Assembly (NCBI RefSeq): GCF_040616545.1
Contig: NZ_CP156688.1
Coordinates: 2,976,001-3,040,000 of the forward strand
DNA length: 64,000 nt
Origin: Akkermansia muciniphila
GTDB lineage: Bacteria; Verrucomicrobiota; Verrucomicrobiia; Verrucomicrobiales; Akkermansiaceae
Direction of reading: 5' to 3'
Of this stretch, positions 32,843 through 51,600 are shown piece after piece (position 1 is the stretch's first letter; every line of letters begins with the position of its first letter). A model generated the notes under the pieces. The model ran no database searches. It worked only from the letters and a program-made list of their open reading frames with translations, and was not told where the DNA came from. Position numbers and translations under genes: made by a program.

Positions 32843-34726
32843 ATGAACAAGCCCTTTCACGCCTTCTGCATTGCCTCCACCCAGTCCGGCGGCGGCAAAA
32901 CAACGGTGTCCCTGGCCCTGATGGCGGCCCTCTGCGGCCGGGGCTTCCGCGTGCAGGCCTTCAAATGCGGACCGGATTACATTGACCCGTCCTTCCACCG
33001 CCAGGCTACGGGCCAGCCCTCCTTTAACCTGGACACGTGGATGATGGGGAAAACCGGGGTGCGGTCCCAGTGGGCGCGGCACGCCTCCTGCGCGGACATC
33101 GCCATCTGCGAGGGGGTCATGGGCCTCTTTGACGCCCGGACGCCGGAAAGCCTGGAAGGAAGCACGGCGGACTGCGCCCTCACGCTTGGCCTGCCCGTCC
33201 TGCTGGTGGTTCAGGCGCGCGGCATGGCGGGCTCCATTGCCGCCGTCGTCCGCGGTTTTTCCCAGCACCATCCCGGCCTGAACATCGCGGGAGTTATTGC
33301 CAACGGCGTGGGAAGCGCCACGCACGCGGACCTTCTGCGCCGGGCGCTGGCCCATTACGGCCTGCCGCCGCTGGTGGCGGCGCTGCCCAGAAACGCGGAA
33401 TGGACGCTCCCGGAACGGCAACTGGGCCTTGTTCCCGCGGAAGAGGAGGCCCGGCAGCAATCCTGGTTCCGCCGGCTGGCGGAAGCAGTGGAAAAGCATG
33501 TCAACTGGGAACTGCTAATGGACATCACGGAAATTCCCCGCCCCGCTCCCCTGAAAGCCTCCGTGCCGTCCGCCCCTGCCCGCGGGCGCCTGGCCGTGGC
33601 GCGGGACAACGCCTTCTGCTTTTACTATGAGGACAATCTGGAACGGCTGAGGCAGATGGGCTGGGAAATTACCTGCTTTTCTCCGCTGGAAGACACCGCC
33701 CTGCCGGAAGGAACCGGGGCCATTTATCTGGGGGGCGGCTATCCGGAAACCTTCGCAAGCCGCCTGGAACGTAATGAGGCCATGCGGAACGCCATCCTGG
33801 ATTTTGCCCGGAGCGGCGGAGAAATCTTTGCCGAATGCGGCGGGTACATGTACCTGTGCCACGAGCTGGTGCTTCCGGACGGGACAATCAGGAAGATGTG
33901 CGGAGTCATTGACGGGACGGCGCGGATGGGAGAAAAGCTCCGTTCCCTGGGGTACCGGGAAGCCGTGATGGAAACGGAAGCCCCGTTCGGCCAGCATTTC
34001 ACCCGCATCCGCGGCCATGAATTCCACTGGTCTTTCATTGAACTGAACCGCCCCTACCCGCCCCTTTACACGGTCAGGGGAAAGGATGGACGCCTGAACG
34101 CGGAAGGCGTGGCGGACGGCAATGTGAAGGCCGGCTACATTCACCTGTACTGGGGGCAGGAAAACCCGGACGCCCCGCAGCCGCCCCAGCCACGGCAGGG
34201 GCGCGTCATCCTGCTCAACGGGGCCTCCAGCGCGGGAAAAAGCACGCTGGCCCGGACCCTGCGCCGCCTGATGGGGGAAGATTCCATGATCTTTTCCATG
34301 GACGACTACCTGGCCATGAGCCGGGGAAGGCATGAAAACGCCCTGGACGCCGTCCGGAAATCCGGACTCCCCTTCATCGAGTCCTTCCATGCCGCCATTG
34401 CGGAAGCCGCGCGGAAAGGCGCCCTGGTCATTGTGGACCACGTCATCGGCGAATCCGCCCGCTGGATCCGGGACCTGCTGAACCGCCTGAACGGCATTCC
34501 CTGCGCCCTTGTCAAGGTGGACTGCCGGGAAGACATCCTGCAGGAACGCGAGCGGAACCGTACCGACCGTACTCCGGACCCGGCCCATGCGGAGCGCCAG
34601 CACGGAAGCATCCACCGGCACTTTCCGCATGATTTCTCCATAGACACCTCGGAAGCCACGCCCCGGAAATGCGCCCTGGAGCTCATGGGACAGCTGCCGC
34701 CGGAATTCAGGATGGCGCAGAAATGA
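32843..34726 (+). CDS. cbiA: cobyrinate a,c-diamide synthase fused to a CPT-like kinase
   Basis: 627 residues. CbiA (about 1-435): ATP site STQSGGGKTTVSLALMAAL, ACRGVMGLFD-type block CEGVMGLFDAR, and the C-terminal glutamine amidotransferase-like domain with the catalytic Cys in FAECGGYMYLC and the His in EFHWSF. It amidates cobyrinate using glutamine. The extension (about 453-627) is a separate P-loop kinase: VILLNGASSAGKSTLARTL (Walker A), MDDYLAMSRGRHENA, VIVDHVIGESARWI and CREDILQERERNRTDRT, which match the chloramphenicol-phosphotransferase family lid and base. A kinase on CbiA is unusual. Substrate unknown; threonine, aminopropanol or an intermediate hydroxyl are possibilities. It begins 45 bases after cbiFGH and ends the operon. 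Confidence 0.92.
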   Translation: MNKPFHAFCIASTQSGGGKTTVSLALMAALCGRGFRVQAFKCGPDYIDPSFHRQATGQPSFNLDTWMMGKTGVRSQWARHASCADIAICEGVMGLFDARTPESLEGSTADCALTLGLPVLLVVQARGMAGSIAAVVRGFSQHHPGLNIAGVIANGVGSATHADLLRRALAHYGLPPLVAALPRNAEWTLPERQLGLVPAEEEARQQSWFRRLAEAVEKHVNWELLMDITEIPRPAPLKASVPSAPARGRLAVARDNAFCFYYEDNLERLRQMGWEITCFSPLEDTALPEGTGAIYLGGGYPETFASRLERNEAMRNAILDFARSGGEIFAECGGYMYLCHELVLPDGTIRKMCGVIDGTARMGEKLRSLGYREAVMETEAPFGQHFTRIRGHEFHWSFIELNRPYPPLYTVRGKDGRLNAEGVADGNVKAGYIHLYWGQENPDAPQPPQPRQGRVILLNGASSAGKSTLARTLRRLMGEDSMIFSMDDYLAMSRGRHENALDAVRKSGLPFIESFHAAIAEAARKGALVIVDHVIGESARWIRDLLNRLNGIPCALVKVDCREDILQERERNRTDRTPDPAHAERQHGSIHRHFPHDFSIDTSEATPRKCALELMGQLPPEFRMAQK

Positions 34727-35320: not shown

Positions 35321-35554
35321 GATACAGTTTACCAGCGGCAATACCCAGCCCAAACTCCCATTGATTCCCGGCGTGAAATGCACTGCCAATCTCCGCATTC
35401 CACTTTTGTTCATGGCGGAAGCATCTTCCTCCGGCAGCACAAAATTTCATGAAGCACAGGCACCCATGCCACCTCCGCAAACCTGCGGACAGACGTGAAT
35501 AGGGCTTTACAGAACCGCCTTCTTCAAGGTAGCTTATGCCCGCGCTTGTTGCAT

Positions 35555-35642
35555 GGAGAGATGGCAGAGCGGTTTAATGCAGCGGTCTTGAAAACCGCCG
35601 TGGGGCAACCCACCGTGGGTTCGAATCCCACTCTCTCCGCCA
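35555..35642 (+). tRNA. tRNA-Ser (TGA)
   Basis: Class II tRNA of 88 nt. Acceptor GGAGAGA pairs with TCTCTCC, discriminator G, and CCA is encoded (35640-35642). Anticodon loop CTTGAAA (35587-35593) gives anticodon TGA, reading UCA codons; flanking stem GCGGT/ACCGC. The long variable arm (GTGGGGCAACCCAC) and the T-loop GTTCGAATC identify serine. It stands alone at the boundary between the B12 cluster and the glycosyltransferase island. Confidence 0.97.
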
Positions 35643-35806
35643 CCCTTGCCTATTTTAAGTCATCCCAAATCGTTGGTTTATCAATGTTTTGCTTTTCCGA
35701 CCCCGGATATTCTTCCCGGCGTTTTCCCGAGACATTCCCGATTCCCGAAGAGACAAGGCCCGCTGATTCCTTCTTTTTGGCCCCCTGTTTCCTGATACGG
35801 TAGGGC

Positions 35807-36457
35807 ATGTTTTACAGAATACTCATCGTCAGTCTGCCCGGTTCACCCAAACGAGAAATCATGACCCAGCGCCTCTCCGCCCAGGGGCTTTCCTGGGAAT
35901 GGGTGGACGGGGTGCGCGTCGCTTCCATGGAGGACATCCCCTGGGAGGAAAGGAACGATTTGGAGGCTTACGGCATTCCCCGTCTCAAGCAGGCTCCGGA
36001 ATACGTTTGCCGGGCCATCGGGTGCAAGCGGGCCATGCGCCGCGCCATTGACCATGCCGCCACCTGCGCGGAAGACTGGGTACTCATCCTTCAGGATGAT
36101 GCGGTGCTGGCGGATTCCTTTGACTCCAAACTGAAGGAACTGCTCCATCGCGTTCCCTACGAAACCGGATGCGTGATGCTGCACCACGCAGGAAGCGGCG
36201 TGAAGGAAGTTGAGGGCTGGACGCGCGTCACGGGCGATGTGCGCAGCATGACGGCTTTTGTGCTGCGCCCTCCGTTTGCCAGGTCCATGTCCAAAGCCCT
36301 CCTGCCATGGGGAGGAGAAACAGACCGCATTTGGGAACACCTGGCCCGGCAGGGGGAGTTCATTATCATCCCTGCCGGGCCAGGGCTTGTTTCATGCAGC
36401 CAGAAGGAAAGCGACATCATCGGAGGTATCCCGGAATTGAGCAAATTTTGGGAATGA
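35807..36457 (+). CDS. GT25-like glycosyltransferase
   Basis: 216 residues. The N-terminus ILIVSLPGSPKREIMTQRLSAQGL is typical of family GT25 (LPS/LOS galactosyl- or related transferases), and the acidic metal-binding motif is WVLILQDDAVLADSF. A CMLHHAGSG region and AFVLRPPFARSMSK follow the family pattern. It would add a sugar to a surface glycan from a nucleotide donor. It is plus-strand, just after tRNA-Ser and ahead of the minus-strand glycosyltransferase operon, which ends 128 bases away. No signal peptide. Confidence 0.78.
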   Translation: MFYRILIVSLPGSPKREIMTQRLSAQGLSWEWVDGVRVASMEDIPWEERNDLEAYGIPRLKQAPEYVCRAIGCKRAMRRAIDHAATCAEDWVLILQDDAVLADSFDSKLKELLHRVPYETGCVMLHHAGSGVKEVEGWTRVTGDVRSMTAFVLRPPFARSMSKALLPWGGETDRIWEHLARQGEFIIIPAGPGLVSCSQKESDIIGGIPELSKFWE

Positions 36458-36585
36458 AGGAACCAGACAGAAGACCCGTACACGTTATGCAGGATGAGGG
36501 CCGCGTGACCGTGCGATCAGGGAAGCGTGGATAAGAGTTTTCCAGGAAAACAAGTGATTGCCCAGCGAACCGACATCACCAGCAC

Positions 36586-37392
36586 TTAATCCAAACGGAG
36601 ATGGGCATACGGGCTTTTTGCCTCCTGCAATAACGGTAGAATCCGGGAGAGGAAACACTCCCGCAGTGCCGGATTGCGGGCAAAGGGGATAGTTTCATCA
36701 TCATGAAATTCCCGGATGATATTCTTGTACTTAGCCGTTTTCATGAAGTGCATCCAGCAGGGATTGGGATAAGGTTTTACCTGCGGATGAGCAGTTATAT
36801 CCACTTCATAAGGCGCCGTAATTCCAAAACGGGGCAAGTTGTTCATGCCGCAGATGAGGTAGTCTCCCCCTCCATTTACGGGCCGAGGACCGTAGATCAT
36901 CAATCTTTGCTGATGGACGAGGGTATTGTGCCCCTGGACAGAGACGCAGTCCTCCGGGCCGGATATCATTTGAAAGGCTGCTTCCAGTTCCCGGGTGAAA
37001 TAAATTTGGTCAGCGTCTATTTTAGACATACAAAACGACTGCCCTTCACCAAGACGACGAATGAATTCCATCCCGAAATTCAAGTAGGTGTCTATTCTGT
37101 TTTCAGGCGGCAGGCTTCTCAAGTCATCCACGGAATGAGGAGGGACGATGTGGTGGGGATAATGGAGAAAGCTGAAACAGCACTGATAAGCGCTGCAGAG
37201 GCGCTGCTCCCATTCCCTGATCAGGTCAATACTGCGGTCATCCATATCCGCCCAGAGCACAACAACGTGGTCCAGAACGGGAGCTACGCTCAACAGGCAT
37301 GGAATAACGGCATTTTCTTCATTGAGAACACGGAGAAAACCTATCCGTTTCATGTTTCCCGGTGATTTTGTTTCCTGTGATTGACGTTCCAT
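36586..37392 (-). CDS. GT2-like glycosyltransferase, last gene of the glycan operon
   Basis: 268 residues. RIGFLRVLNEENAVIPCLLSVAPVLDHVVVLWADMDDRSIDLIREW is typical of distant GT2 enzymes, with a DADQ in CMSKIDADQIYFTREL as the likely metal motif. C-terminal half is less recognisable (PNPCWMHFMKTAKYKNII). It is the last of five minus-strand genes (45382 to 36586) and 48 bases after the previous one. Either ATG at 37392 or 37353 (MKRIGFLR) is possible; the shorter one begins at the conserved strand. Acceptor unknown. Confidence 0.65.
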   Translation of the reverse strand: MERQSQETKSPGNMKRIGFLRVLNEENAVIPCLLSVAPVLDHVVVLWADMDDRSIDLIREWEQRLCSAYQCCFSFLHYPHHIVPPHSVDDLRSLPPENRIDTYLNFGMEFIRRLGEGQSFCMSKIDADQIYFTRELEAAFQMISGPEDCVSVQGHNTLVHQQRLMIYGPRPVNGGGDYLICGMNNLPRFGITAPYEVDITAHPQVKPYPNPCWMHFMKTAKYKNIIREFHDDETIPFARNPALRECFLSRILPLLQEAKSPYAHLRLD

Positions 37393-37440
37393 ATAGTTTT
37401 AATTAAGTGTTTTTCATTTTCGGGGCATTTTCCGGCAAGC

Positions 37441-39708
37441 TCAGGCCGGTATAAGCAGATTTTTCCCGTCTGCATGATTCCCGCTTTCCGTTTCCATCAT
37501 CCGGAACATTTCTTCCATCCAGGATTGAACCAATTCCGGTTTTTCTTTTACCAAGTGTATGATTTTTCCATGGACATCAGTATGATGTTCCTTGCTGCCA
37601 GCCTGATGGACATATGTTTTCAGAAGATAGGGTGCCAGTCTTTCCGTTGCTTCTTCATCAAGGGTCCAATGTTGATTGGCGCTGTAAAATGCAAACAATT
37701 GAAGGCCGGATGTTTCCGGCTGCCGAATCAGCCTGAGGGGGTCTCCATAACGCTGCAAAAGGTTTTTAAACGGCTTTTTTTCTCTAATCTGCGCATGGAA
37801 CGGAGAAACCTTCACCCCCCGGTGTACAGGGGACTGCCCACTGAAGTCCACCGGCCATGCGCATCCCCACACGCCAATATGAAGATGGGGGAAATCCTTT
37901 TTCAACCGCTGCGCCAGAACAAGGCCCGCAAGAGCATCCTTGCAAATCCCCATCAGCAGCACGGATTTCAACTGGGGCATTTTCCGTATCCCCCGTTCCA
38001 TATCAAGATACATGCGTTCCAGAAGCATCAGCCCCTCCCATTGGTGATATCTCATGCCGATAAAAGGACGGCAGGAGTGCCGGAATACGGAGTTGCTGCC
38101 ATCGTACGGGTTGACGATCAATTCCGTGGCGTATTTGTTCACTTCATTGAGGGTAGAGAAGAAATGATAGTCCAGGTATTTATATTTCCCCTCTTCCGTC
38201 TTGAAGAATTGTTCAGTTCCCCAGTTATCCCATTTAAGAACGAGATTGCTTTCATCATGTTGAAGTATGGTTGCATGGTCATTGCGGTGAAGCCTGTGAC
38301 CACGTTTTTCATCCATCTGGAATTGGTCTGTCCACTGAGGATGGCTGAGGATAATGGTCTCCGCTGAAGTCATGTCCATGGCAGGAACGTCCACAACGGA
38401 AGGAACCGGAGATGCCGGGCAGGAGTAATGGAATTCACTGGCGGCATCTTCCAGAATGGGGATGACTCTTCCACTGTCAATGAGGGATTGCATGTAGGCA
38501 TTTTCCGTTGGCGCATGATGCTTCCATGAACCTGCGGCCCTCAGGTTCATATCCGTATCTCCCAAATAATAAAGCTGGGCTTCAGGGAATAAATAGTCCG
38601 CGAGACAAAGAGCCTTGCTTAACGTGGTGAAGTTACCCGTGCTCCGGTGAACTGCTCCCGGCATGAATTTCCAGTTTTCCAGTCCTTCCCGGCAGGCAAA
38701 TTCATTGGAAGAGTCCAATTCTTCATTATTAAAGTAAATTTCCGGAACTCCGCGCAAGACTTCCATATGCCTTTCCCCAGGAGAAAAAGCCAAGTATATG
38801 GCGCAGCAGGAAATCAGAACTATATCCGTCTTCACTCCTGCCAGGCCGGAATTCAAATTATCCATTTTGCTTACTCTGATCACTTTGTCACAAGAGTCTA
38901 CAAACGCTGAATAGTTGCGTGTCAAATCACGTTTATTGGAAACGATGCAAATACGTTGCCTGCATCCTTCTGAAGCCAGAAAATATTGATAGTTTTTGAT
39001 TTCACTTAATCGCGACAAGGCATGCCACTCTTCTTCCGTATCAATTTGCAGGCAACAGGGAAAGTCGTTTGGATAGGGGCACGAGTTATCCTCAAACATC
39101 GTGCCCGTTTCCAGAAATTTCTTCCGGGTTACGATATTGATGTTTCCATCAAAAAAATAGAAAAATTTTTTGGCATCCTGTTCACGATAAGCCAGATGGA
39201 AATGCCCCTCAAAATGGCCAATCATTTTAGTCTTGCGAGCCGTATAAGCGGATTGGATTTTTCCCTTTTCCACATCTTCCGCCATTTGACGAAGAAGCCC
39301 CGGACGACGGAAGGGAGAAGTTGGCTGCAGTACGGCGAACATCTCACAGGAGAAGCGGGCCAGCACCTGGCGTATGCAATTTTCCATCCGGCGGTCGTCC
39401 ACCGTCTCCCGGAAGAAATGGATGCCTTCCCGGCGGCAGCGTTCCATTATTTTTTCACTGTCCGTACTGACAACGGGGACAAATCCCTCCTGCAGGGCGT
39501 AGGAAACGGAATATAAAAACAAGGGCCTTCCGTTCAACAAGCGCCTGTTTTTATTAGGACAGCGCGCCGAATGTTTTTTAGCAGGAATGATGGCCAGTTT
39601 GGGGACAAAAGAGGGCAGAATGCGATCCTGTGGGTCAAATCCCGCCCGCAAATCCGCAAAAGCAACAGGTTTGGCCTCCTGGAATTTTATATCTGCTGCC
39701 TCAGCCAT
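37441..39708 (-). CDS. CMP-sialate synthetase / GT29-like sialyltransferase fusion
   Basis: 755 residues with at least three parts. Residues 37-235: acylneuraminate cytidylyltransferase (LAIIPAKKHSARCPNKN, STDSEKI, VLQPTSPFR), which makes CMP-sialic acid or a related CMP-nonulosonate. Residues 250-420: sialyltransferase-like. It shows an L-motif-like RICIVSNKRDLTRNYSAFVD with a following VIRV and TDI, an S-motif-like STGNFTTLSKALCLADYLF, and the GT29 VS-type H-x4-E in HHAPTE. Residues about 453-505: the shared module with HPQW and LKWDNWG. Residues 511-755: unrecognised. It overlaps the upstream GT6-containing gene by 22 bases. The synthetase lacks the usual Arg in IPARxGS (Lys here). No neuB/neuC is in the window. 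Confidence 0.75.
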   Translation of the reverse strand: MAEAADIKFQEAKPVAFADLRAGFDPQDRILPSFVPKLAIIPAKKHSARCPNKNRRLLNGRPLFLYSVSYALQEGFVPVVSTDSEKIMERCRREGIHFFRETVDDRRMENCIRQVLARFSCEMFAVLQPTSPFRRPGLLRQMAEDVEKGKIQSAYTARKTKMIGHFEGHFHLAYREQDAKKFFYFFDGNINIVTRKKFLETGTMFEDNSCPYPNDFPCCLQIDTEEEWHALSRLSEIKNYQYFLASEGCRQRICIVSNKRDLTRNYSAFVDSCDKVIRVSKMDNLNSGLAGVKTDIVLISCCAIYLAFSPGERHMEVLRGVPEIYFNNEELDSSNEFACREGLENWKFMPGAVHRSTGNFTTLSKALCLADYLFPEAQLYYLGDTDMNLRAAGSWKHHAPTENAYMQSLIDSGRVIPILEDAASEFHYSCPASPVPSVVDVPAMDMTSAETIILSHPQWTDQFQMDEKRGHRLHRNDHATILQHDESNLVLKWDNWGTEQFFKTEEGKYKYLDYHFFSTLNEVNKYATELIVNPYDGSNSVFRHSCRPFIGMRYHQWEGLMLLERMYLDMERGIRKMPQLKSVLLMGICKDALAGLVLAQRLKKDFPHLHIGVWGCAWPVDFSGQSPVHRGVKVSPFHAQIREKKPFKNLLQRYGDPLRLIRQPETSGLQLFAFYSANQHWTLDEEATERLAPYLLKTYVHQAGSKEHHTDVHGKIIHLVKEKPELVQSWMEEMFRMMETESGNHADGKNLLIPA

Positions 39709-42050
39709 GTGTGTCCTCCACGTTTTTGAAGAGATTTATCCTTCACGATCATTTTGGCTTTCGGCTTGATCGCCATAAGATTTTTTTGATTAAAGTCCAA
39801 TGTTTCAGGAAACAAATATTCCGGGGATAAAACAAGCGGATGCCTGCCGATCATATATTTGTTGAGATGGCTTTCATCATGCCAGACGGCAATGACGCCA
39901 TCCTCAAGATCCCGTCTGACGGCACCGGCCAATTCCCGGCACATGCAGAGATAATCTTCAGCCCTTCCCCCATTGAAGCCTCCGGCGAAATAATATTCTC
40001 CCTCGGAAGGGAGAACACGTGCCCGGGACATTCCATTTTTTTCATAGGGGTAAGCGGACCGATGGCATTTGTAGTACCCCGGATGCATCGTTACCGTAAG
40101 GCCTTGCCGGCTCGTCGGGAAAATTTCCCGCCCGATAGGCGCTATGGGAAGCAGAGTGCCGTTCATGAAATAAATGTAGTCGTACTGCTGTAGTTCCTCC
40201 TGAACCTTTAAAAAAGTTTCAAACCTTCTCAAGGTTTCCATGGGCCATGGATAAAACGGTTTGCTGACAAGGGTAACGTCTTCTCCCGTTTCCGCTTCCA
40301 TATGATCCGTGAATAGAAAATAATGCACATCGTGCCCTGTCAAAAAATACTGTCTGGAAGCCGCATAGAACTCCTCCCAGAATGTAATGTAACGCCCCGT
40401 GGCCACAAACAGGACAGCCACTTTTTTTCCGGATGGAGGAGAAGGTTCTTCACGCTTGCCGCTACCTGACAAAAGGAAGATGCCGTCTTCCCTTTTTTTA
40501 AACGTCTCTACTCCCCAGCAATCCCACTTAAGGGTTATTGCCTTGTCAGTGGCGGAAACAACATCCGCTCCGTCATCACGTTCAAAACGGCGCGCCCGGT
40601 TCCCAAGGATACGGATAACATCATGCCATTGGGGATGATGCACTTCCATGAGATGCTCCTCATTGTCCCGGTTAATGGAAATGTTCCAGTTCCTACCCTG
40701 AAAATCTCCCGGCACCAGTCCTCCGCGCATTACGGAGGTATTGCCGGTCTGGATCACCAGATGCATCGGGAGAGACATTTCCTGTACATACCGGGTACGG
40801 TTGCAGCTCCCGGTATCCAGCATGATCATGTGCATGAAGTTGTCTTCCGTAAAGCCGTATCCGGCATGACGGAGCCTGGGCGACATTTTGGATATCCGGT
40901 GCGGCTCCTGCTCACAAATCATTAATTTTTCCAGGACATCACGACTAAAGACCAGAGTGGGGCCAAAGCAGCCGAAAAATCCATTTCCGGAGAAGGGATA
41001 GCCACCCCTGGCGCCCAGGTATTCTCCCGGTCCACAGTAGAAGCTGCTGAATTCCGGAGGAAGATGCAGATGGAAGTTATTGACTGACTTGAAATAGTCC
41101 CTGCCGTACAAGTCATCATCATCAACTTTGGCGAAAAGATCGTACCCGGAAACGTCCAAATCCCTTACCGTATCCAGAAAATTGGAAAGCTGGTTCTTGT
41201 TGGGGAACAGCCGCATCGTCAAACGTCCTTCGTGAATGAAATGTTCAAACAGGGGCAGCACAGTCCTGCGGTACGTACCTTCCGGTATTCCTTTGACAGC
41301 TGCAAAAACATGCAGATTCGGATAGCTCTGATCCATCATGCACCAAATTTGCCTCTGCAAATCCGTCAACCGCTTATAGGAGGAGATGCAGGCCGCAATC
41401 TTGCAGTCCGGTCTCTGTTTGGTGCGCTCATGCTGGTAGAACAAATTGTGGCGCGCCACCCGGATCTTGAGGTCTCCATGGCTGTTGGCAGCCTCCAGAG
41501 CTATATCAGTAGGCAACCGGTAATCTGCAAAAACCCGGGCTACCCTGGAACGCCGCGCGGCAGGAATGACAAGGGCATGCGTTCCCCATACGTAGGAGGT
41601 ATTGGAATCCGTCTCTCCCGTTTTGAAATCTTCAAACAAGATTTCATCAGAGTCAGCGGGGGCTCCTTCCGGGGACCAGGCCGCATGATGGAACAGCCGG
41701 AAAATATCCGTCTCCGGATGTTCCATCATTTCCTTTCCGAGAGCTGTTTCCAAACGGGAAGAAGCTACCATCGGCACGGCATCACTTTCACCGAAAATAA
41801 TGAGATCGTTTCCGGCATACCTCCTGTCCTCCAGAAGGCGTATGAAAGATGCCCTCAGTGAACGGACGTGCGAACGTTCCGCAGATGCAGGGGACCTTCC
41901 CAAGTAGGAGGAGCTTTCCTCTTCCCGGCTGTCCCTGAGGGCGGAAAGATCCCAGGTGGAGGGATAGAGCTCCAGCTCATACCCCAGCCGGTGCAATTCG
42001 GAAGCACCCTCCGCCTTTTCTCCGGGCGATACAATCAAAACACATTTCAT
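39687..42050 (-). CDS. GT25-like / GT2-like / GT6 glycosyltransferase fusion
   Basis: 787 residues. Residues 1-205: GT25-like, with acidic motif LIIFGESDAVP. Residues 215-465: GT2-like, with IAACISSYKRLTDLQRQIWCMM and metal-binding DLFAKVDDDDLYG. Residues 470-525: shared module (HHPQW, LKWDCWG). Residues 541-770: GT6, the family of ABO blood-group and alpha-1,3-galactosyltransferases, with HDVHYFLFTDH, TMHPGYY, FAGGFNGG and the hallmark AVWHDESHLNKY followed by VLSPEYLFPE. The mammalian DxD site is replaced by NGT (residues 630-632), similar to the NxN of other bacterial GT6. Stop overlaps the next gene by 22 bases. Likely a cytosolic or inner-membrane-associated glycan-chain builder. Confidence 0.82.
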   Translation of the reverse strand: MKCVLIVSPGEKAEGASELHRLGYELELYPSTWDLSALRDSREEESSSYLGRSPASAERSHVRSLRASFIRLLEDRRYAGNDLIIFGESDAVPMVASSRLETALGKEMMEHPETDIFRLFHHAAWSPEGAPADSDEILFEDFKTGETDSNTSYVWGTHALVIPAARRSRVARVFADYRLPTDIALEAANSHGDLKIRVARHNLFYQHERTKQRPDCKIAACISSYKRLTDLQRQIWCMMDQSYPNLHVFAAVKGIPEGTYRRTVLPLFEHFIHEGRLTMRLFPNKNQLSNFLDTVRDLDVSGYDLFAKVDDDDLYGRDYFKSVNNFHLHLPPEFSSFYCGPGEYLGARGGYPFSGNGFFGCFGPTLVFSRDVLEKLMICEQEPHRISKMSPRLRHAGYGFTEDNFMHMIMLDTGSCNRTRYVQEMSLPMHLVIQTGNTSVMRGGLVPGDFQGRNWNISINRDNEEHLMEVHHPQWHDVIRILGNRARRFERDDGADVVSATDKAITLKWDCWGVETFKKREDGIFLLSGSGKREEPSPPSGKKVAVLFVATGRYITFWEEFYAASRQYFLTGHDVHYFLFTDHMEAETGEDVTLVSKPFYPWPMETLRRFETFLKVQEELQQYDYIYFMNGTLLPIAPIGREIFPTSRQGLTVTMHPGYYKCHRSAYPYEKNGMSRARVLPSEGEYYFAGGFNGGRAEDYLCMCRELAGAVRRDLEDGVIAVWHDESHLNKYMIGRHPLVLSPEYLFPETLDFNQKNLMAIKPKAKMIVKDKSLQKRGGHTWLRQQI

Positions 42051-42062
42051 AAGATGCGCCTG

Positions 42063-44318
42063 TTAAAGTTTAATCCATTGCGGGCAGAAGATGTCCTGCT
42101 CATCCTCAATTTTTCCGGCAAACCATTGTTTTTGAATAAAAACCCTCTGCTGCCCTCCCAGCCAGGCCCCCCACCAGGAAAAGGAGGAACAGGAAAGGAT
42201 GAGTTCCTGCATGGACGTCAACTCCCGGAGGGCGTCCAGCGTCCCATGCGCATCCATGATTATTTCAAAACGTTTTGCTTCCGGAACCCTCTCCATTAAT
42301 TTCCGGGCCAAATCCGGAGAATCCGAAAAGATGACCAGCTTCCTGATGTTGCCGGAAAGCCTGCGTAAGGCTTCATCAAGGAAAGGAACATCCGGCGTGC
42401 GGTACATGTCTGCATGGCCAAGATAGTCCCCCATCCTTATATGGACGCCCGCGGAGCCCTCCTGAACAGGAGAAATGAGAGGAGCAAACAGAGAACGGAC
42501 TTCTTCCGCAACATCATTAAAATACCGCTCGCTCTGGAAATATCCTCTCAGGGCGCCACGGCGAACCGTGTGCGGAATGGGGCGATAGGAAAATGCGGGT
42601 TCCCTGTATGTCACGGGATCAGTATACCCGCCGTCCGGACACAGGGAGCAAGCCTCCCCCAAATAAGCCATCAATTCCCAGGTTTCAGAACCGTGCCTCC
42701 AGGGGATACGGCATTCCACCCCTGTCCGGAGGGCATGCGCATAAGCGGCAGCTATCTGGAACAGATGGTTGCCCGTACGCGATCCGGGCATGAACTGCGT
42801 AGTGACGTAATCAGGAGATACGGGCACAGAGGTACGACGCATGGATAAAAGCGCACCGGAAGCGGCTCCTTCCGGTTTTACGGCATCCAGGCAGACGGTG
42901 CCCAGCAGGTCAAAGGGATGTTCATCCCTGTCAGCACGTCTTTCCAGGCATTGAAGATGCAAATGGCGGGAAATACCCGGAGCGTGCTGGGAAACCTGGA
43001 ATCCCAACTCCTCCAGAACATAACTCAGAAAATCGGCAGACCACAGGGATTGTTGCCTGTAAACTTCCATAAATGTACATAAATCATTCCCCGGAACCGG
43101 ATTTCCCTTCCCCCGGTCCTTCATGTACTGCCTGAACGCGGGCGTCATCATCCCGCACATCAGGCGCACGTCCCGAAAACTCAGACGTAAAATTCCCCCG
43201 GGTTTCAGAGAACGGAAGGCCTCCGTGAAAAACCGGCAGGCCTGTGCAGCCGTTACCGAGCCAATGACGTGTTCCAGATAAAAGGCATCCACGGAACCGT
43301 CCTTCCACGGGAGCGGCCTGGTGATGTCATAATTGGGGGCGTCCAGATTCAACCAGCCATTCAATCTCCGGGTGCCGCATCCCAAGTGAATGTACAGGAG
43401 GGGGGACTGGTCCATGATTTCCACATTGCCGGAAGAAAGACGGCGTTCAGCCCATAACCGGGCCAGGGACGGCATGTCCGGCCTCTGGCATATCTCCGTT
43501 TCCGATCCGATGTACCGCTCTCCTTCCAAAAGGAGCTGCTCCATAGGCCACATCTGCCATTTCAGCGTCAGTTCCCCTTTGGAGCCGATGCTCCACCAGC
43601 CATAGCAGGAAGTATCCCTCCTTCTGAATGCCCCATTGGAGTAAAACAGCATCTCCCCTTTCCAGTGAAGATGTGCAACATCACACACGGTGGAGGGAAT
43701 TCTGTAATTGAAAGAATAAATGGCTTGCATGATGGTGGGAGAGCACCAGTGAGCCGTTACCATGTCGTTATTCATTTCCGGATAATAAACATTGGACATG
43801 TAAAGCCGTTTGGTGGACTTCAGCCTGCCCCCCAGCTTGCCTACCAGTTCACCTACAATCACATCCTCCGCCCCGCATTCCGCAAAACCCGGCGCATCCA
43901 CCAGCTTTTCCACCATGCTGCGCTTCAGCAGGTAACCAGCCCCTCCGCTGGGCGAGTTGCGAAAGGAAACCAGAGCATCCCCGATCAGATCGTAGTCTTC
44001 ATCGATTAACGATGCCAACCGGCTCAGTTCCAAATATGTGTCGTCATCACATTTGAAGAGCCAGTCGAATTCGTAGTGCTCCAGCGCATGACGAAAGAAG
44101 GATTTCACCTTTCCGGGCAGTTCGTTGTAGCCATCAGCCGCGTCAAGCCCCACCGTGTCCCCTTCCTCCCCCTCCGGGGCCCGGTTATCACCCACAAAGA
44201 ACACGCATTCGATGCCGTCCGCAGGATGGGAGAGCCACGTAGTGCGCACTGCCTCACGCTTATCAACCATTCCATGGCACGAGCAGATGCCTACGATTAT
44301 GTTTGTTTTCTTTTTCAT
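42063..44318 (-). CDS. GT31-like / methyltransferase / GT11 fucosyltransferase fusion
   Basis: 751 residues. Residues 1-215: GT31-like beta-1,3-galactosyltransferase (REAVRTTWLSH, WLFKCDDDTYLEL with the DDD metal motif, GAGYLLKRSMVEKL, EDVIVG). Residues 215-275: a diverged copy of the shared module (RRRDTS, LTLKWQMWPME). Residues 305-465: SAM methyltransferase-like (LHLGCGTRRLNGWLNLD, SLKPGGILRLS). Residues 505-751: GT11 alpha-1,2-fucosyltransferase (RTGNHLFQIAAAYAHAL, GYFQSERYF, VHIRMGDY, SCSSFSWWGAWLG). ATG at 44318 is supported by a GGAGGG 7 bases upstream, and an ATG at 44333 is also in frame. Together the parts could extend a galactose-containing chain and cap it with fucose, as in an H antigen. 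Confidence 0.82.
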   Translation of the reverse strand: MKKKTNIIVGICSCHGMVDKREAVRTTWLSHPADGIECVFFVGDNRAPEGEEGDTVGLDAADGYNELPGKVKSFFRHALEHYEFDWLFKCDDDTYLELSRLASLIDEDYDLIGDALVSFRNSPSGGAGYLLKRSMVEKLVDAPGFAECGAEDVIVGELVGKLGGRLKSTKRLYMSNVYYPEMNNDMVTAHWCSPTIMQAIYSFNYRIPSTVCDVAHLHWKGEMLFYSNGAFRRRDTSCYGWWSIGSKGELTLKWQMWPMEQLLLEGERYIGSETEICQRPDMPSLARLWAERRLSSGNVEIMDQSPLLYIHLGCGTRRLNGWLNLDAPNYDITRPLPWKDGSVDAFYLEHVIGSVTAAQACRFFTEAFRSLKPGGILRLSFRDVRLMCGMMTPAFRQYMKDRGKGNPVPGNDLCTFMEVYRQQSLWSADFLSYVLEELGFQVSQHAPGISRHLHLQCLERRADRDEHPFDLLGTVCLDAVKPEGAASGALLSMRRTSVPVSPDYVTTQFMPGSRTGNHLFQIAAAYAHALRTGVECRIPWRHGSETWELMAYLGEACSLCPDGGYTDPVTYREPAFSYRPIPHTVRRGALRGYFQSERYFNDVAEEVRSLFAPLISPVQEGSAGVHIRMGDYLGHADMYRTPDVPFLDEALRRLSGNIRKLVIFSDSPDLARKLMERVPEAKRFEIIMDAHGTLDALRELTSMQELILSCSSFSWWGAWLGGQQRVFIQKQWFAGKIEDEQDIFCPQWIKL

Positions 44319-44335
44319 GGTTTTTCCCTCCATTT

Positions 44336-45382
44336 CTAGCCCGGCAATTTTTCCACCGCTTCAAAGACTTCCTCCCAGCTGGCGACAGACGCTTCCAGGC
44401 CACCAAGCTCCAGCCCCCGTTCCCGAGCGGCATGGGCCATGTCCGACCTCAGGCCGGGCTCGTAGGCCATTTTACTGGCGTAGTAGATGAAGTCCCTTTC
44501 ATGGTCGCACAGCCACCCGGTTTTGCCGTGCTCCACCATCTGCCTCCAGCCTCCACGGTTATCCACCACCAGTACGCTTCCGCTGGCCATGGATTCAAAG
44601 CCTACACGCGGCCAGTTTTCCGTCGTGTCCGTCGGCTGAAGTACGATCTGGCAATGCTTGTAGAAGTCCTGCTGGCTTACCTCTCTCTGATCGCGGGCCG
44701 TGCGTATCCAGCCGTAGGGCTCTCCGATCTTCTCCCGGCTTCTCTGGTCAAAACCCAGAAAGAGGCCGCGCTTAAAGACGGGGGCTACGAAATACTCATA
44801 GATGTGGAGCGTATTGGCCGCAAATTTGTCCGCATCCTGGCGCGAGATACGCCCGCAGCCGAAGTATTCCTGCGTCCTCTCCTCAATAAAGGGGAAGGAT
44901 TCGTTATGAAAATAGGGCTTGAAAGTCATAAAAACGATGGAAGGATCGTCATTGCAGCGCTTGAGCAGGGGCATGTTTTTCTGCCTGACTTCCTCATTCT
45001 GGTAAAGGAACATGGCAATGAGCCCCTGCTTCATGAGTTCCTTTTCCTTGTTAAAGAGCCAGGTCATGCAGTTGACAAAGATGGTGCGTTTGGTGCGCCG
45101 GCGAATGGCGGGCATGTTTTCCAGGAATTCCCCGTTACAGAACCCGATGATAGCATCCCCTTCCTGCAGAACGGTCCAGTCGTTGGGGGCGTGGATATGG
45201 ACGCCCAGACGGATCATTTCCAGATAAAGGGCTTCATTTTCAAATCCGCCGTTGGTGGGGATGATGTGGACGTCAATGCCCATGTGGAGCCAGACCATGA
45301 TCTGGTGGTGGAGTTCGGTTCCCGCTCCTCCGTAAAGGCTGGGGAACCCGTTGACATAGATCTTTTTCAAGGTGGTACTCAT
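44336..45382 (-). CDS. GT4-family glycosyltransferase, first gene of the glycan operon
   Basis: 348 residues. The GT-B fold is shown by IYVNGFPSLYGGAGTELHHQIMVWLHMG at the N-terminus and the C-terminal ENWPRVGFESMASGSVLVVDNRGGWRQMVEHGKTGWLC, with the catalytic-region Glu in GFESMASG. It likely transfers a hexose to a growing glycan. It is the first of the five minus-strand genes; the divergent RHS gene starts about 250 bases upstream, so the promoter lies in 45383-45632. The following gene begins 2 to 17 bases away. Confidence 0.82.
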   Translation of the reverse strand: MSTTLKKIYVNGFPSLYGGAGTELHHQIMVWLHMGIDVHIIPTNGGFENEALYLEMIRLGVHIHAPNDWTVLQEGDAIIGFCNGEFLENMPAIRRRTKRTIFVNCMTWLFNKEKELMKQGLIAMFLYQNEEVRQKNMPLLKRCNDDPSIVFMTFKPYFHNESFPFIEERTQEYFGCGRISRQDADKFAANTLHIYEYFVAPVFKRGLFLGFDQRSREKIGEPYGWIRTARDQREVSQQDFYKHCQIVLQPTDTTENWPRVGFESMASGSVLVVDNRGGWRQMVEHGKTGWLCDHERDFIYYASKMAYEPGLRSDMAHAARERGLELGGLEASVASWEEVFEAVEKLPG

Positions 45383-45632
45383 GGAATAATGGAGTTAAAG
45401 GTTGAACGAATTCATTGATGGACGCTAGCACGCTGCCTTTTAAGCTGGCAATGGGTAAATTTTGAAAATATGGCAAAGAAATACGTGCCACCGGAGAGCA
45501 ATATCCCCTCTTTTTCCACGTTGCCATCCGCCTCCAAAACGCATCAAACATCATAACGTTCGCGGCGTGTTTACACTGGTAGTTTTTGTTTCATGGTAGG
45601 GGCAACCATTGAACCAACACCATTTCATTACC

Positions 45633-48600
45633 ATGAACAACACTTTCAACATCGGTGCCATGGACACCGTCTACCCCTTCATTCCCATGTACCCCAACGG
45701 ACAGCCCCAGGGCAACTTCCTGGTCAACGGCCTCACCGCTCCCGTGCTCGTCCCCAAACGGACCGCTTCCTCCCCCACCCGCCACGAATGGTTCGGATAC
45801 CTCAAGGTCATGGCTCCCTCCACCTGTTTTCTCCACCTTCATGCCCGCTCATCCATTTCCCTTTCCATCCCCGCCAAGGAGCTGGAACTTGCCACGGAGG
45901 CCGGCTCTTCCACGCCTCTCTGCCGCCAGCTTCATTTCGAACAGGGCTATTACTGGTGCCACATCGTCCATCAATACCAGCCTTCCTTGGGGTCGGAAGA
46001 GGAGTTCTGCATTGCCTTAATGTGCGACAAGCAAGGAGAGCCCGACCTGGATTATTACCTTTCAGAGGAGACGATGCCTCCCGGCAAGCAAGGAGAGACG
46101 GTGCTGACGCTGGTCAACCTGTACCAGGAAGAGGAGGAAGGGGACTCGTCTAGCAGTTCCTCGGCAGGGGGGGGAGATTCCTTTGAGTTTGACCCCAAGT
46201 CAAGCAGCAGTTCGAGTTCTTCTTCCAGCAGCAGTTCGTCTTCCTCCTCGTCGAGTTCATCCAGTTTTTCCGGCAGCAGTCCCTCTACAGATTCGTCTTC
46301 ATCCAGTTCCAGCTCGCCTTTATCCAGCAGCTCCAGTTCTTCCTCATCTTCCTCCAGCAGCTGGTCGTCTTCCAGTTTCCACAGCAGTTCCTTGGTGCCC
46401 GAGACTCCAACGTCCTCCAGCAGCGCTCCGTCTTCCAGCTCTTCCTCGAGCAGCTCCAGCAGTTCTTCTTCCAGTTCGTCGTCCTCCAGCAGTTCGAGTT
46501 CCTCCAGTAGCTCCAGCTCTTCCTCGTCAAGCAGTTCTTCCTGGTCCTCGTCAAGTTCATCGAGTTCTTCGAGCTCCACCTCCTCTTCCAGCAGCAGTTC
46601 CAGTTCCCTCTCCTCTTCCTCCAGCGAACCGGACTTGGAAGAGGAACCCTGTCCGTGTGAATGTGAATGCAATGAAGAAGGAGACGAAAACTGTGTCCAG
46701 ACACAGCCCACTCCGGGGGACCCCGAGGGTGAACAGGACTGCCAGGGCAACGCCTGCATCACCCCACCTTCTCCGGGAGGGCCCACTCCTCCGGCTCCCG
46801 CCAGGTTCATGAGGGCAGCCCGCGTTGCCGGCTCTGCCAACACGCAAGCACATGCCAGCTTCTCCATGCGCTACAACCACCCCATGGCATGGAGCGCTTC
46901 CTTCTCGGCTGACGAGCGCCGCGTCACCGTCAGGCGCCCCTCTGGAAGCCATCTTTACTTCAAGGCCAAAGAGGGGAGCAGCGAGGCTTCTCCCATCGGC
47001 TCTTCCAGGAAGGTCAACTACCGCGTGAGACTTCTCCATGAAGATCTCACTCCCAGCACGCAGGGCACTCCTGCTTTCATGGACATGGCCCTTCCCGGCG
47101 GCATGGTCCTGCGCTTCTCTTCCTCCACCGGAGAAGTCGTGTCGGTCACTAGCTCCTCGGGCAACGTCATATCCGCCGAGGAGTACTTCAGTAAAGTCCA
47201 GGTGGCTTGCAACGAAAATGGCTCTCTTGCCAGTGTTTATTCCCGGGCCCAGGGGTTGATGAGAAGCATTCTTGAAGGCGACAGGCTTACCCTGGAGTGG
47301 TTTGCTCCCAATAACGCCGCCCCGGACGGGGAAGGAGAGTTCACCGTTACCGGAGAGCCCTACAAGACGGCCGTCTATGAAACCTCCCTTGAAAATGGAA
47401 TTAAGGTCACCCATATCACCAACCGGCGCGCCGGCCAGGAGCCGCATTTCATCGAACGCCGCGAGGAAGGCAACAAGGTGACCGTCATCAAGGGGGAGGG
47501 AGACGAGCGGATTGTCCGAACCATTGAACGCAATGCATTGCCCGGCTCCAAGTGGGAGCGTCTTGAAACCCTTCAGGGCATCAATGATGAAACGCCCGCC
47601 TCCTGTACCCGGACAGTGAAGAAGTATACCGACGGCGGCTGGCTGACCATCAGCAACACCGAGGGATACAACACGCCTCTGGCCCGGACCACCCTCTATA
47701 CCTATAACGACCAGTTCCGGGTGTCCCTGGAGATCAAGCCCGACGGCGGGTACACGCGCTACGAATATGATGACCGGGGCCGGGTGGTGCTCTCCGCTGC
47801 TCCCTGGGCCGGAGGCGGGGAGAGAGGGACGCGCACCACTTACGCCGACCTGCGCTTCAATGACTTCAGACCCGCCACGGAAACCGAATTAATTATTGCT
47901 GAGGATGGGAAGGAAACGGAACTTGGCAAGCGCACTTACACGTATGAGGACAGCCCGCAAGTCAGCCGCACGGCCGTGACGGAAACCGCACTGGGCTCCG
48001 ACCAGGTCCATACGAGTGTAGAAGAGACTTATGGGGAAGCTGCCGAATATCCCTACGCCCGGGGCAGGTGGAAGATGAGCCAGGGCATCAATGGCGTCCA
48101 GAGGGTTTACACCTATGAAGCAGCCGCGGAATACGGGGCCGTCCACAAGGTGACGGAGACCGTGCAGGCCAACGGAAGCATCGTTCCCGGACAAAGCACC
48201 AGGAACGTAGAGTACATTGCTGAAAACGGCACCACCGCCAGGAAAGAACAATACGTTCACACCGGAGAAGGCTGGTCGCTGATTGCCTCGGAGGACTATG
48301 AATACGACGATGAGCAGAGGCTCGTCAAGACAACCAGGGGCAACGGCAGAACCAGTACGACGGAATGGATGTGCTGCGGGCCGTTGAGGGAAACTGACGA
48401 AGACGGCATCACAACCAGCTACGGCTACAATTCAGCCAAGCAGCTGATGGAAACCATCCGCTCAGCTACCGAGACTACGCCAGAAACAATTACTTCCTAC
48501 AGCTATGATGCGGCGGGAAGGACGATTGCCACGCGCCGCGACATAGGGGCCATGACCACGGTGGAGAGTACAGAGTACGACGATCTGGGACGAGTAGTTT

Positions 48601-51600
48601 CCTCTACGGATATACTTGGCAGAGTGACACGAACGGAATGCAGCGAGGACCGCCTTACAACAACCATCACTACTCCTTCGGGAGCCACTCTGGTCACTCA
48701 AACCCATTACGACGGCACCGTCGTTCTGAAGGGAGGAACCGGACAGCGGGAAAAAGAAACTCAACTTGAATTGACAGAAGAAGGAATCCTTGCCACTACC
48801 CTCTCCGGGGGAGTCGTGTTGTCGCGGACGCTGAAAAACGGCTTCGGTCAAATCATCCAACAGGAACAGCCTAATACGAAGGGGGGACTCATAACAACCA
48901 GGAATACCTACAATGAGAAAGGGCTGCTCGTGCGTTCCGAGACGGAGGACTTTCCTCCCACTGTCACAGACTACAACAAACTGGGGCAGACCGTGAGGCA
49001 AACCGTCCTGCTGGATGAACTTCATCCCAATGACACTACGAGAAACAGGATGTCGGAGAACTCCACCTGCTACCAGCTCCGGGAGGACGGCGTCTACCAG
49101 GTGCAGGCTTCCACGACCTATAATGCCGATGGCCTTCCTCTCATTCAAACCACGGAGAATATGGTTTCTCAGCTTGATTCCCTTCTGGAAAGCAAGTCCA
49201 TTTCCACGGACATCTACGGTCAGCAGAGCGTACAATGGACGGAGTATACTGCTCCAACCAAGCGCACCCAGTTCAGCCGGATTCCAACTTCGGAGATCAC
49301 AGCCCAATCAGTCATCGTAGATGGATTTACAACAAACCAGACTGATCACGCCGGAATCCGTTCCTCACAACAGTTCTGCTGTACCTCTACACGGATGATT
49401 CTGGAAAAAACCGATGGTCGCGGCAATGTCGCTACTACAGAAACTGACCTTGCCGGACGTACTGTCAAAGTCACCGATCCTGCAGGCAACGTGACCACCA
49501 CCAGCTACTTGTCCTGCTGTGACGCCGTGGCTTGCATCACCGATGCTTTGGGAGGCACGACCTACTACTCCTATGATATCCGCGGCAGAAAGACGGCCGA
49601 GTACGGCACCGCCGTCCAGCCGGCCTGTTTTTCCTATGATGAAGCCGACCGTATGGTTACCTTGACTACCTTCCGGGCTAGCGAAGGAGACATCACCACC
49701 GATCCTTCCGGCCGAACCGACGGAGACACCACCACTTGGCTCTACGATCCAGCCACCGGTCTGGAACTGAAAAAAACCTATGCCGACGGGTCCTGTATCT
49801 CCAAAACCTATGACGATCTCAATCGTCTGAAGACATTGACCAAAGCACGAGGCGTTGTGACAAAATATACGTATGCTTCCCTCACCGGAGAACTTGTCTC
49901 CGTCTTCCACAGTGATGATACGCCAGGATGGGAGTTCACCTACAACCAGCTTGGACAGATGACCTACGTCCGGGACGCCTCCGGCATCAGGGAATTTTCC
50001 TATGATGCCTATGGAAGAACGCAACAGGACACTTCCTTTGGAACCGTGGAAAGCAGCCTTCTGGAAGAATACGATGCCTTTGGTCGTTCGGCCGGCTGCC
50101 GCCTGATGACCGGCACACGCACCGTGCAACACTCCCATCTTGACTATGACCGGAAAGGTGGCATATTCAGGATGAATCTGGAAGGTCTAAAATCTCCCTT
50201 TACTTGGGAATACGATTCAACCAGCGGCCTCCTCAACCATCTCACTTACCCCAACGGCATGGTCCGCCAAAATACCTATCATCCCAGGCTCAACCTCGTA
50301 ACCGCCATCGGTTACAGGAAAGGAGCGGATGGAGAATCGGCGGCCAGCCATGAATACGGCTACGACGCGCTGATGCGTCCCGTTCAACGCCGGGACTCCT
50401 GGGATGGAACCACTCCTGCAACCACCAGAAACTTCACCTGCAACAGCCGCAGCGAGCTGGTCGAAGACCGGGTCAGCCCGGGAGGAAGCTTTATCTATTC
50501 CTACGACAATATCGGCAACCGCAGGACTGCCCGGGAACTGGAGGAGGAAGTTTCCTACGATGCCAACGGCCTTAACCAGTACGTGGATATTGCCGGGGGA
50601 GAAGAACATTTTAAACCCGTCTACGACGCCGACGGCAACCAGGCCACGATCAGGACCTCAACGGGCATCTGGAAAGTTTCCTACGACGCCAATGACCGCC
50701 CCATCGTCTTCACCAGCCAGGATGGCAGAACAACCATCACCTGCGGCTACGACTACCGGGGACGGCGCTTTGAAAAGAAGGTTTCCGTCAATGGAGCAGT
50801 ATATAGCCACTCCTGGTTCCTGTACCGGGACTATCTGCAGGTAGCCCAACTGGATTTGAATCATCCTGAACCTGTGCTTGTAAAGAGTTATTTGTGGGAT
50901 CCGACGGAATCCATGACCACGCGCATCTTGATGATGACATGCTGGCAAGAGAACGGAATGAAAGTAAAAGGGCATCTCTACTTCATGCACGATGTCATGA
51001 AGAATGTTACTTCCATCTTTGATGGACAACACACGAGAAGAGCTCGCTACGAGTATGCGCCTTTTGGTAGCCTTCTCACCGCAGAAGGAGACATGGCGCA
51101 GGAAAACAAGTTCCGCTTCTCCTGCGAGTTCTCGGACGACGAACTAGGGCTGGTTTACTACAACTACCGCCACCTCAATCCCGCAGACGGCAGGTGGATC
51201 AATCGCGATCCTATCGTCGAACAGGGTGGATGGAATTTGTACGGGTTTATAAAAAATCATATTCAGAAAAATGTTGATTTTTTAGGAATGGTGAGCTCCT
51301 CTCCTTTAGATCCAGCTTTTACTCCTCCTCCCATACCAGATAGAGTTGGCCAGAGCAGAGGCATTAAACTTTCGTATTTTGCTTGTAAAAGAAAGTTAGA
51401 TAAATTAGGAGATAAAGCTATTAAGGCACTTTTAGCAGGAAAAGTTACACATGTTCCTTCAGATTTTAAACCGAATTCAGAATGTGAAGAATCCTGCCAA
51501 TGCATCCGTAGTTTAATTATTATTATGCATGGGGAAGAACCCTGGATTAGAAAAAATGATACAAATGTAAGGGCGCATTGGGGAGAAAGGTTCTTAACTG

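Follow-up and report, generated by a model that had tools for sequence, protein, structure and literature searches.

A candidate operon of fused glycosyltransferases in Akkermansia muciniphila that may build partly host-like surface glycans

The mucus specialist Akkermansia is being studied as a probiotic, and the locus described here raises the question of whether its own surface may bear look-alikes of host sugars, because the enzymes encoded belong to families that in animals make blood-group sugars and, probably, sialic-acid sugars. The locus lies in the window, by which we mean the whole 64,000-nucleotide stretch that was analyzed (bases 2976001-3040000 of a single-contig genome of 3.055 Mb). 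In the translated list of open reading frames (ORFs), five frames, all on the minus strand, run nearly abutting from position 45382 down to 36586: gene 1 (44336-45382; 348 aa), gene 2 (42063-44333; 756 aa), gene 3 (39687-42050; 787 aa), gene 4 (37441-39708; 755 aa) and gene 5 (36586-37392; 268 aa). The gaps between them measure 2, 12, -22 and 48 bp, so a single operon transcript is likely. The original prediction had placed five co-directional genes here, and we found all of them at the same positions and on the same strand; the motifs that it quoted (DDD, VHIRMGDY and AVWHDESHLNKY) are likewise all present in the translations. It overlooked a module common to three of the proteins, the C-terminal domain of the fourth protein and a missing GT10 domain, which are described below. 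All domain coordinates within the operon refer to the minus strand.

Gene 1 encodes a GT4 glycosyltransferase (PF00534, E 9.6e-9, above the Pfam cut-off). The gene is full length in five of the six other operon loci, the contig of the sixth (G051) stopping inside the second gene; a homologous GT4 is also the first gene of both paralogous loci in the same genome, and GT4 is present in 5 of the 10 larger module loci inspected. The second protein begins with a GT31 domain (residues 1-222; 43668-44333) that matches Galactosyl_T (PF01762) at 41.8 bits against a cut-off of 23 (E 1.4e-10) and, among PDB sequences, the glycoprotein-GalNAc 3-beta-galactosyltransferase 1 of entry 7q4i at E 1.1e-7. After a copy of the shared module come a SAM-dependent methyltransferase (residues 297-500; 42834-43445; Methyltransf_11, 24.8 bits, cut-off 21.2, E 3.6e-5) and a domain of the alpha-1,2-fucosyltransferase family GT11 (residues 501-756; 42066-42833; PF01531, 58.6 bits, cut-off 23.9, E 7.7e-16). 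The stretch VHIRMGDY in the GT11 domain corresponds to the HxRxGDY-type motif of that family. The position of the methyltransferase inside the GT11 protein suggests that a sugar may receive a non-host modification.

The third protein combines two GT-A-like parts, a second module copy and a GT6 domain. Its N-terminal part (residues 1-208; 41427-42050) had been called GT25-like and the part that follows, which contains DDDD (residues 209-466; 40653-41426), GT2-like; the former has no match to PF01755 (GT25) up to E 10 and the latter no significant Pfam match. Both assignments are supported by a confident model of residues 1-530 (pLDDT 90, from an alignment of 26 sequences). In this model, residues 1-209 superpose on the COLGALT1 chain 9evk_B with a Z score of 14.9 (rmsd 3.3 over 184 residues) and on the beta-1,4-galactosyltransferase 8xkd_B with a Z score of 14.3, and residues 216-455 superpose on SpsA (1h7l) with a Z score of 15.7 (rmsd 3.0 over 194 residues); GT-A folds resemble one another, however, which limits how far these superpositions identify a family. 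The ABO-type GT6 domain (residues 541-787; 39690-40430) matches PF03414 at 114 bits against a cut-off of 25 (E 8e-33) and falls just below the NCBIfam Gltr_6 cut-off (242 versus 250 bits); among PDB sequences it matches BoGT6a (4ayj) at 1.7e-51 and the human ABO transferase at 8.3e-32. The families originally assigned thus stand for GT4, GT6, GT11, GT31, the methyltransferase and the cytidylyltransferase domain (CTP_transf_3), each of which exceeds its Pfam cut-off.

BoGT6a of Bacteroides ovatus shares 37% identity with the GT6 domain over 251 columns. According to excerpts of its description (PMC3961637), BoGT6a forms A-antigen-like products from UDP-GalNAc, contacts donor or ligand through N95, W66, T70, H122, K231, H239 and R243, and is less active when E192 is changed. 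The Akkermansia domain retains equivalents of these contact residues and the WHDE stretch, and an E192 equivalent is found in 10 of 10 sequences aligned with BoGT6a; most of the UDP-GalNAc contacts are thereby kept. Unlike BoGT6a, which is a solved chain of 246 residues with an NXN motif, the Akkermansia enzyme is a fused domain with NGT at this site, as it is in the five operon orthologues examined: the first Asn is retained and the second, equivalent to N97, is replaced by Thr. The same excerpts (PMC3961637) describe N97 as making no contact with the donor, so NGT need not abolish activity, and N69 and T134 as making contact; the equivalents of these two are changed here (N69->E and T134->P). 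We read the NGT motif, together with the predicted methyltransferase, as a caution against perfect mimicry. Other Akkermansia genomes have GT6 genes that are not part of the operon (L016, L126, L127 and L129); in these the NXN site reads NGD, NAN, NAD or NST.

The fourth protein carries a CMP-nonulosonate (NeuA/PseF-type) cytidylyltransferase domain (38995-39603; PF02348, 43.8 bits, cut-off 22.6, E 3.5e-11) with the stretches VSTDSE, LQPTSP and KN, which resemble NeuA/PseF-type motifs. The next domain (38389-38994) had been predicted to be GT29-like. It has no Pfam match up to E 10, PF00777 included, and PF00777 has no match anywhere in the genome; in the phylum sample, PF00777 is found at E <= 0.01 in 6 of 387 genomes, four of them above the cut-off. 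As a template we used a profile of five of the six PF00777 proteins, two of the five lying below the Pfam cut-off and the sixth being left out as interrupted despite lying above it. By hhalign, the profile of the operon domain scored 49.7 against this template, compared with 21.9 for the best of 100 column shuffles, 17.1 for the reversed profile and at most 19.4 for nine other parts of the operon; adding one more divergent homologue raised the score to 57.7, whereas the best of 100 shuffles reached 20.3. The signal is strongest at the L-sialylmotif region, and 47 columns align at default settings. A search of the PDB with the profile gave only matches with E > 1. The prediction thus fails in Pfam and holds as a distant likeness in profile-profile comparison, which points to a GT29-like domain with an L-sialylmotif-like stretch rather than GT29 proper. 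Within the phylum sample, the domain occurs in the seven operon genomes, in a broken second copy in G017 and in one marginal match elsewhere. Outside that sample, a locus in G009 (L122, 4313-5803) encodes CMP synthetase, GT29-like domain and module, with an in-frame stop within the GT29-like part. An AlphaFold2 model of the whole 755-aa protein had a pLDDT of 35 and was set aside.

A third module copy precedes the C-terminal domain of the fourth protein (37444-38163), which has no Pfam match up to E 10, is retained in orthologues aligned with MAFFT and is partly present in a 977-aa GT10-GT2 protein of G017. Gene 5 encodes a CgtA-like glycosyltransferase (PF06306, 26.7 bits, cut-off 21, E 4.8e-6), in agreement with the small fifth glycosyltransferase foreseen at first. 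It is present in all six other operon loci and is split over two frames in G017, so it is either dispensable there or affected by an assembly error.

The fourth protein is 1075-1076 aa long in five relatives (G017, G061, G004, G051 and G271). Those of G017 and G004 start with FucT_N and GT10 (Pfam, E <= 1.4e-17), and in the other three a GT10 match lies inside the frame of the protein. At the start of the window's protein is what appears to be a remnant of this N terminus, about 23-31 residues, with the deletion junction (39604-39708). By BLAST, residues 1-31 align at 55-58% with residues 1-31 of the proteins from G017 and G061, after which the match resumes at their cytidylyltransferase; MAFFT aligns 23 of these residues with the N terminus of the GT10 orthologues. 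The orthologue from the same species resembles the window's protein in this. GT10 was therefore probably removed by an in-frame internal deletion in the window's species; a gain in the relatives is less likely because the remnant reaches into FucT_N. The genome has three further GT10 matches at other places. The Lewis-type GT10 would make the relatives' set more host-like and leave the window copy less so, and the five relatives would thereby have an H/Lewis/AB/sialyl-type family set.

Three of the five proteins share a module of about 60 residues ending in LKWDxWGxExF. Copy 1 (residues 223-286 of the 756-aa protein; 43476-43667) is the most divergent and was included by motif; its match to the module profile is by construction because it belongs to the seed alignment, and the same position is also occupied in GT31-module proteins outside the seed set. 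Copy 2 (residues 467-530 of the 787-aa protein; 40461-40652) and copy 3 (residues 449-515 of the 755-aa protein; 38164-38364) match each other by BLAST (40% over 52 residues, E 9e-10), and copy 2 is modeled as seven beta strands. A genome-wide profile search returned eight copies, which are precisely the sequences that seeded the model; they lie in three loci, the operon and two paralogous loci at about 273 and 2224 kb. Of 59 genomes of the genus that were examined, 21 have the module, this one included, as do 19 of 387 phylum genomes (4 of 197 genera). Neither Pfam (best E 0.077, for one of the eight members) nor PDB sequences (best E 1.2) gave anything significant, and the rows of the structure aligner mostly cover residues 29-452, so the fold of the module was barely probed.

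Across 30 loci and 10 larger loci, which overlap in part, the module mostly follows a glycosyltransferase domain (GT31, GT2, GT10 or GT29-like), and its fusions recur in shuffled combinations across the genus: one chain reads GT32-GT31-module-GT25-GT2-module, another, in A. glycaniphila, GT31-module-methyltransferase-GT25-GT2-module, and a further one GT10-GT2-module. Five of the 30 loci have several copies in a reading frame without a recognized glycosyltransferase, which speaks against a purely glycosyltransferase role; the module may serve in packing or docking and so tolerate fusion. Two proteins (L116, 491-3853, and L117, 206-3589) end in three module copies; that of L116, the one scanned among the five loci, has ankyrin repeats by Pfam.

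We read the operon locus in the genome of the window and in six others. The 787-aa protein is 99% identical over its whole length in A. muciniphila strain CSUN-56 AmIII, and between two genomes of the species all five genes are 98.5-100% identical. All six other loci contain the third and fourth genes. Among 76 genus genomes, 15 have some GT6 match, and the seven that have the operon are also the ones with fused GT6 frames (789-791 aa). Estimated for each tested gene and domain in two comparisons, by a simple counting method with some synonymous sites near saturation, dN/dS ranged over 0.07-0.17 among genes and 0.04-0.22 among domains. These values are well below 1 (below 0.25 for domains), so the tested domains are maintained. 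In one of the paralogous loci (L062, 8912-9346), the GT11 gene is shortened, with a frame change relative to the 252-aa copy in L063.

We favor, with moderate confidence, a reading in which the operon is an assembly line that adds fucosylated, alpha-Gal(NAc)-capped and possibly sialylated oligosaccharides to a surface acceptor. Gene order, domain families, conservation, purifying selection, the GDP-fucose genes and the absence of GT10 from the fourth protein are observed; the linkages, order of action, acceptor, source of sialic acid, display and mimicry are deduced from knowledge of the families. Glycosyltransferases fused in series would act in the cytoplasm, where the conserved core, GT4 and then GT31 with its module, would extend an acceptor by a beta-1,3-linked sugar, the fused GT11 would add L-fucose and GT6 would add alpha-1,3-Gal or GalNAc; GT31, GT11 and GT6 together would follow the family logic of H and then A/B synthesis. 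The GT25, GT2 and CgtA-like enzymes may add further residues, and a nonulosonic acid, once activated by the CMP-sugar synthetase, would be transferred by the fused GT29-like domain. The line would yield a short glycan at the cell surface, carried most probably by lipooligosaccharide or else by a glycoprotein; its tips would overlap host A/B/H-type structures and might carry sialic acid scavenged from mucin. The genome encodes a GDP-mannose dehydratase (Gmd, 576 bits, above cut-off) and, adjoining it, a GDP-fucose-synthase-like (Fcl-type) protein (425.7 bits, below the cut-off of 500), so that GDP-fucose supply appears to be encoded. Against the assembly-line reading stand the altered GT6 positions, the built-in methyltransferase domain, the missing NeuB, the lack of a Pfam GT29 match and of a recognized polymerase, flippase or ligase among the flanking ORFs scanned, and glycosyltransferase families alone leave the linkage unfixed. 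A more far-reaching version strikes us as possible and rather doubtful: near-complete host-type caps (H and A/B, Lewis in relatives, sialyl from scavenged mucin sialic acid) would be made by a modular system in which the beta module, attached to glycosyltransferase domains, permits their fusion, swapping and loss, and AmIII would have switched its cap through in-frame excision of GT10, the remainder of the polypeptide being kept.

The same enzymes might instead make an ordinary O-methylated bacterial surface oligosaccharide that is not identical to any host glycan, with the blood-group likeness incidental and GT6, GT11 and GT31 used as families common in bacterial and phage glycan loci. We regard this as a serious contender, if short of an even chance. 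The methyltransferase midway in the GT11 protein and the altered ligand-contact residues of GT6 fit it, as do the GT6 relatives in 71 phage records, mostly of Synechococcus phages; since GT6 is widespread in phages, family membership alone is no proof of mimicry. The paralogous loci in the same genome also point this way, as they show no GT6 and one carries a pyruvyl transferase and a Gb3_synth/Gly_transf_sug domain, which we take to be GT32. However, GT11, GT6 and GT31, joined in relatives by GT10 and the GT29-like domain, are the set expected for host-type glycans in a mucin specialist, and the methyltransferase is itself a prediction. That the operon is instead a decaying remnant without a product we consider very improbable: GT10 is missing in the window's species, the paralogous GT11 gene is shortened and the CgtA-like gene of G017 is split, but the five genes are full length and nearly identical in the second genome of the species, and dN/dS is low in every tested gene and domain.

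A narrower doubt, which concerns one donor and is compatible with either the assembly-line reading or the ordinary bacterial oligosaccharide, is whether the CMP-synthetase/GT29-like pair uses a non-sialic ulosonic acid, such as Kdo; we think this rather unlikely. Of 39 genomes searched, 5 have a NeuB-family gene (PF03102), one other member of the genus among them, and the three operon genomes in that sample (G000, G004 and G017) have none. The nonulosonic acid would thus have to be taken up from outside, with mucin as the simplest source, unless the donor is a different compound. Among PDB sequences, KdsB chains (1.9e-5) outrank NeuA (0.0034). Among NCBIfam models, in contrast, the best match is PseF (TIGR03584, 1.1e-12; 48.1 bits, below the equivalog cut-off of 205.7), with KdsB models weak and behind it at 1.1e-6, and the motifs also look NeuA/PseF-type. 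Plant GT29 proteins have been proposed as Kdo transferases in the excerpted text of PMC5811610, which would suit the alternative donor.

Blood-group A and B antigens in bacteria and GT29 sequences of bacterial origin have been described before: excerpts of PMC4202792 describe GT11 (WbwK) and GT6 (WbnI) of Escherichia coli O86 for blood group B and BgtA of Helicobacter mustelae for blood group A, and excerpts of PMC5811610 report 23 bacterial GT29 sequences. The Akkermansia domains belong to the same H-type GT11 and A/B-type GT6 families, with activity predicted; the earlier enzymes are described individually in those excerpts, whereas here they are parts of multi-glycosyltransferase fusions with GT31, GT25-like, CMP synthetase and GT29-like domains. 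With bacterial GT29 the operon domain shares the L-sialylmotif-like stretch and a collinear profile alignment; unlike them it has no Pfam GT29 match and is fused to a CMP-sugar synthetase, module and C-terminal domain. The Akkermansia capsule locus cps1, which in the excerpted report comprises Wza, Wzc, Wzx, Wzy, GT11 and a pyruvyltransferase (PMC13343947; further loci were found in that study by a Wza search), also contains surface-glycan genes; unlike there, Wza, Wzc, Wzx and Wzy are not recognized at the operon. A CMP-N-acetylneuraminic acid synthetase annotated as specific to AmII/AmIV in the excerpted PMC8262928 is possibly an orthologue of the synthetase domain of the fourth protein. Judged by titles and the beginnings of abstracts, the literature searched describes neither the operon nor its fusions nor the module, and we regard the module and the GT10 loss as new; together they show clearly, in a natural setting, how glycans may evolve when fusion enzymes swap entire domains. 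A/B/H- or sialyl-like tips, if true, would bear on anti-A/B natural antibodies, on lectin and Siglec recognition and on strain differences between phylogroups.

The setting of the operon adds several observations. GC content is 0.48-0.55 per operon gene, compared with 0.58 and 0.65 in two adjoining cobalamin (cob) genes. We rejected the idea of an island integrated at a tRNA, since the final 15-25 bases of tRNA-Ser are present once in the window and hence form no att-type repeat; the low GC remains. Nor did signs of phase variation appear, with no homopolymer of at least 8 in 35400-46000 and no inverted repeat of at least 10 nt at 45300-45700, and promoter and terminator scans did no better than chance. 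Four pairs of inverted repeats lie at 35400-36700; one of them (36340-36384), with perfect 15-nt arms around a 15-nt loop, is located inside a GT25-like gene on the plus strand, near its end. This gene (35807-36457) adjoins tRNA-Ser and matches PF01755 at 21.7 bits, below the cut-off of 24. Among the six other operon loci it is present solely in that of the same species, and a 70% relative adjoins a module gene in G015; it is associated with the operon, its membership being uncertain. A Pfam scan of 11 flanking ORFs, the larger ones, recognized no Wza, Wzx or Wzy and no polymerase, flippase or ligase; matches were to cobalamin, RHS, FGE-sulfatase and UvrA-type families. On the plus strand, 45609-51788 encodes an RHS-repeat protein of 2059 aa whose N-terminal part includes a long serine-rich tract; several small low-GC ORFs come after it, and the four that were scanned gave no Pfam match. 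Also on the plus strand, 32843-34723 encodes a fusion of a CobB/CobQ-type protein with a kinase domain resembling chloramphenicol phosphotransferase. On the minus strand, 58424-63946 encodes a UvrA-type ABC protein of 1841 aa, which has two UvrA-interaction stretches and appears to be a tandem duplication.
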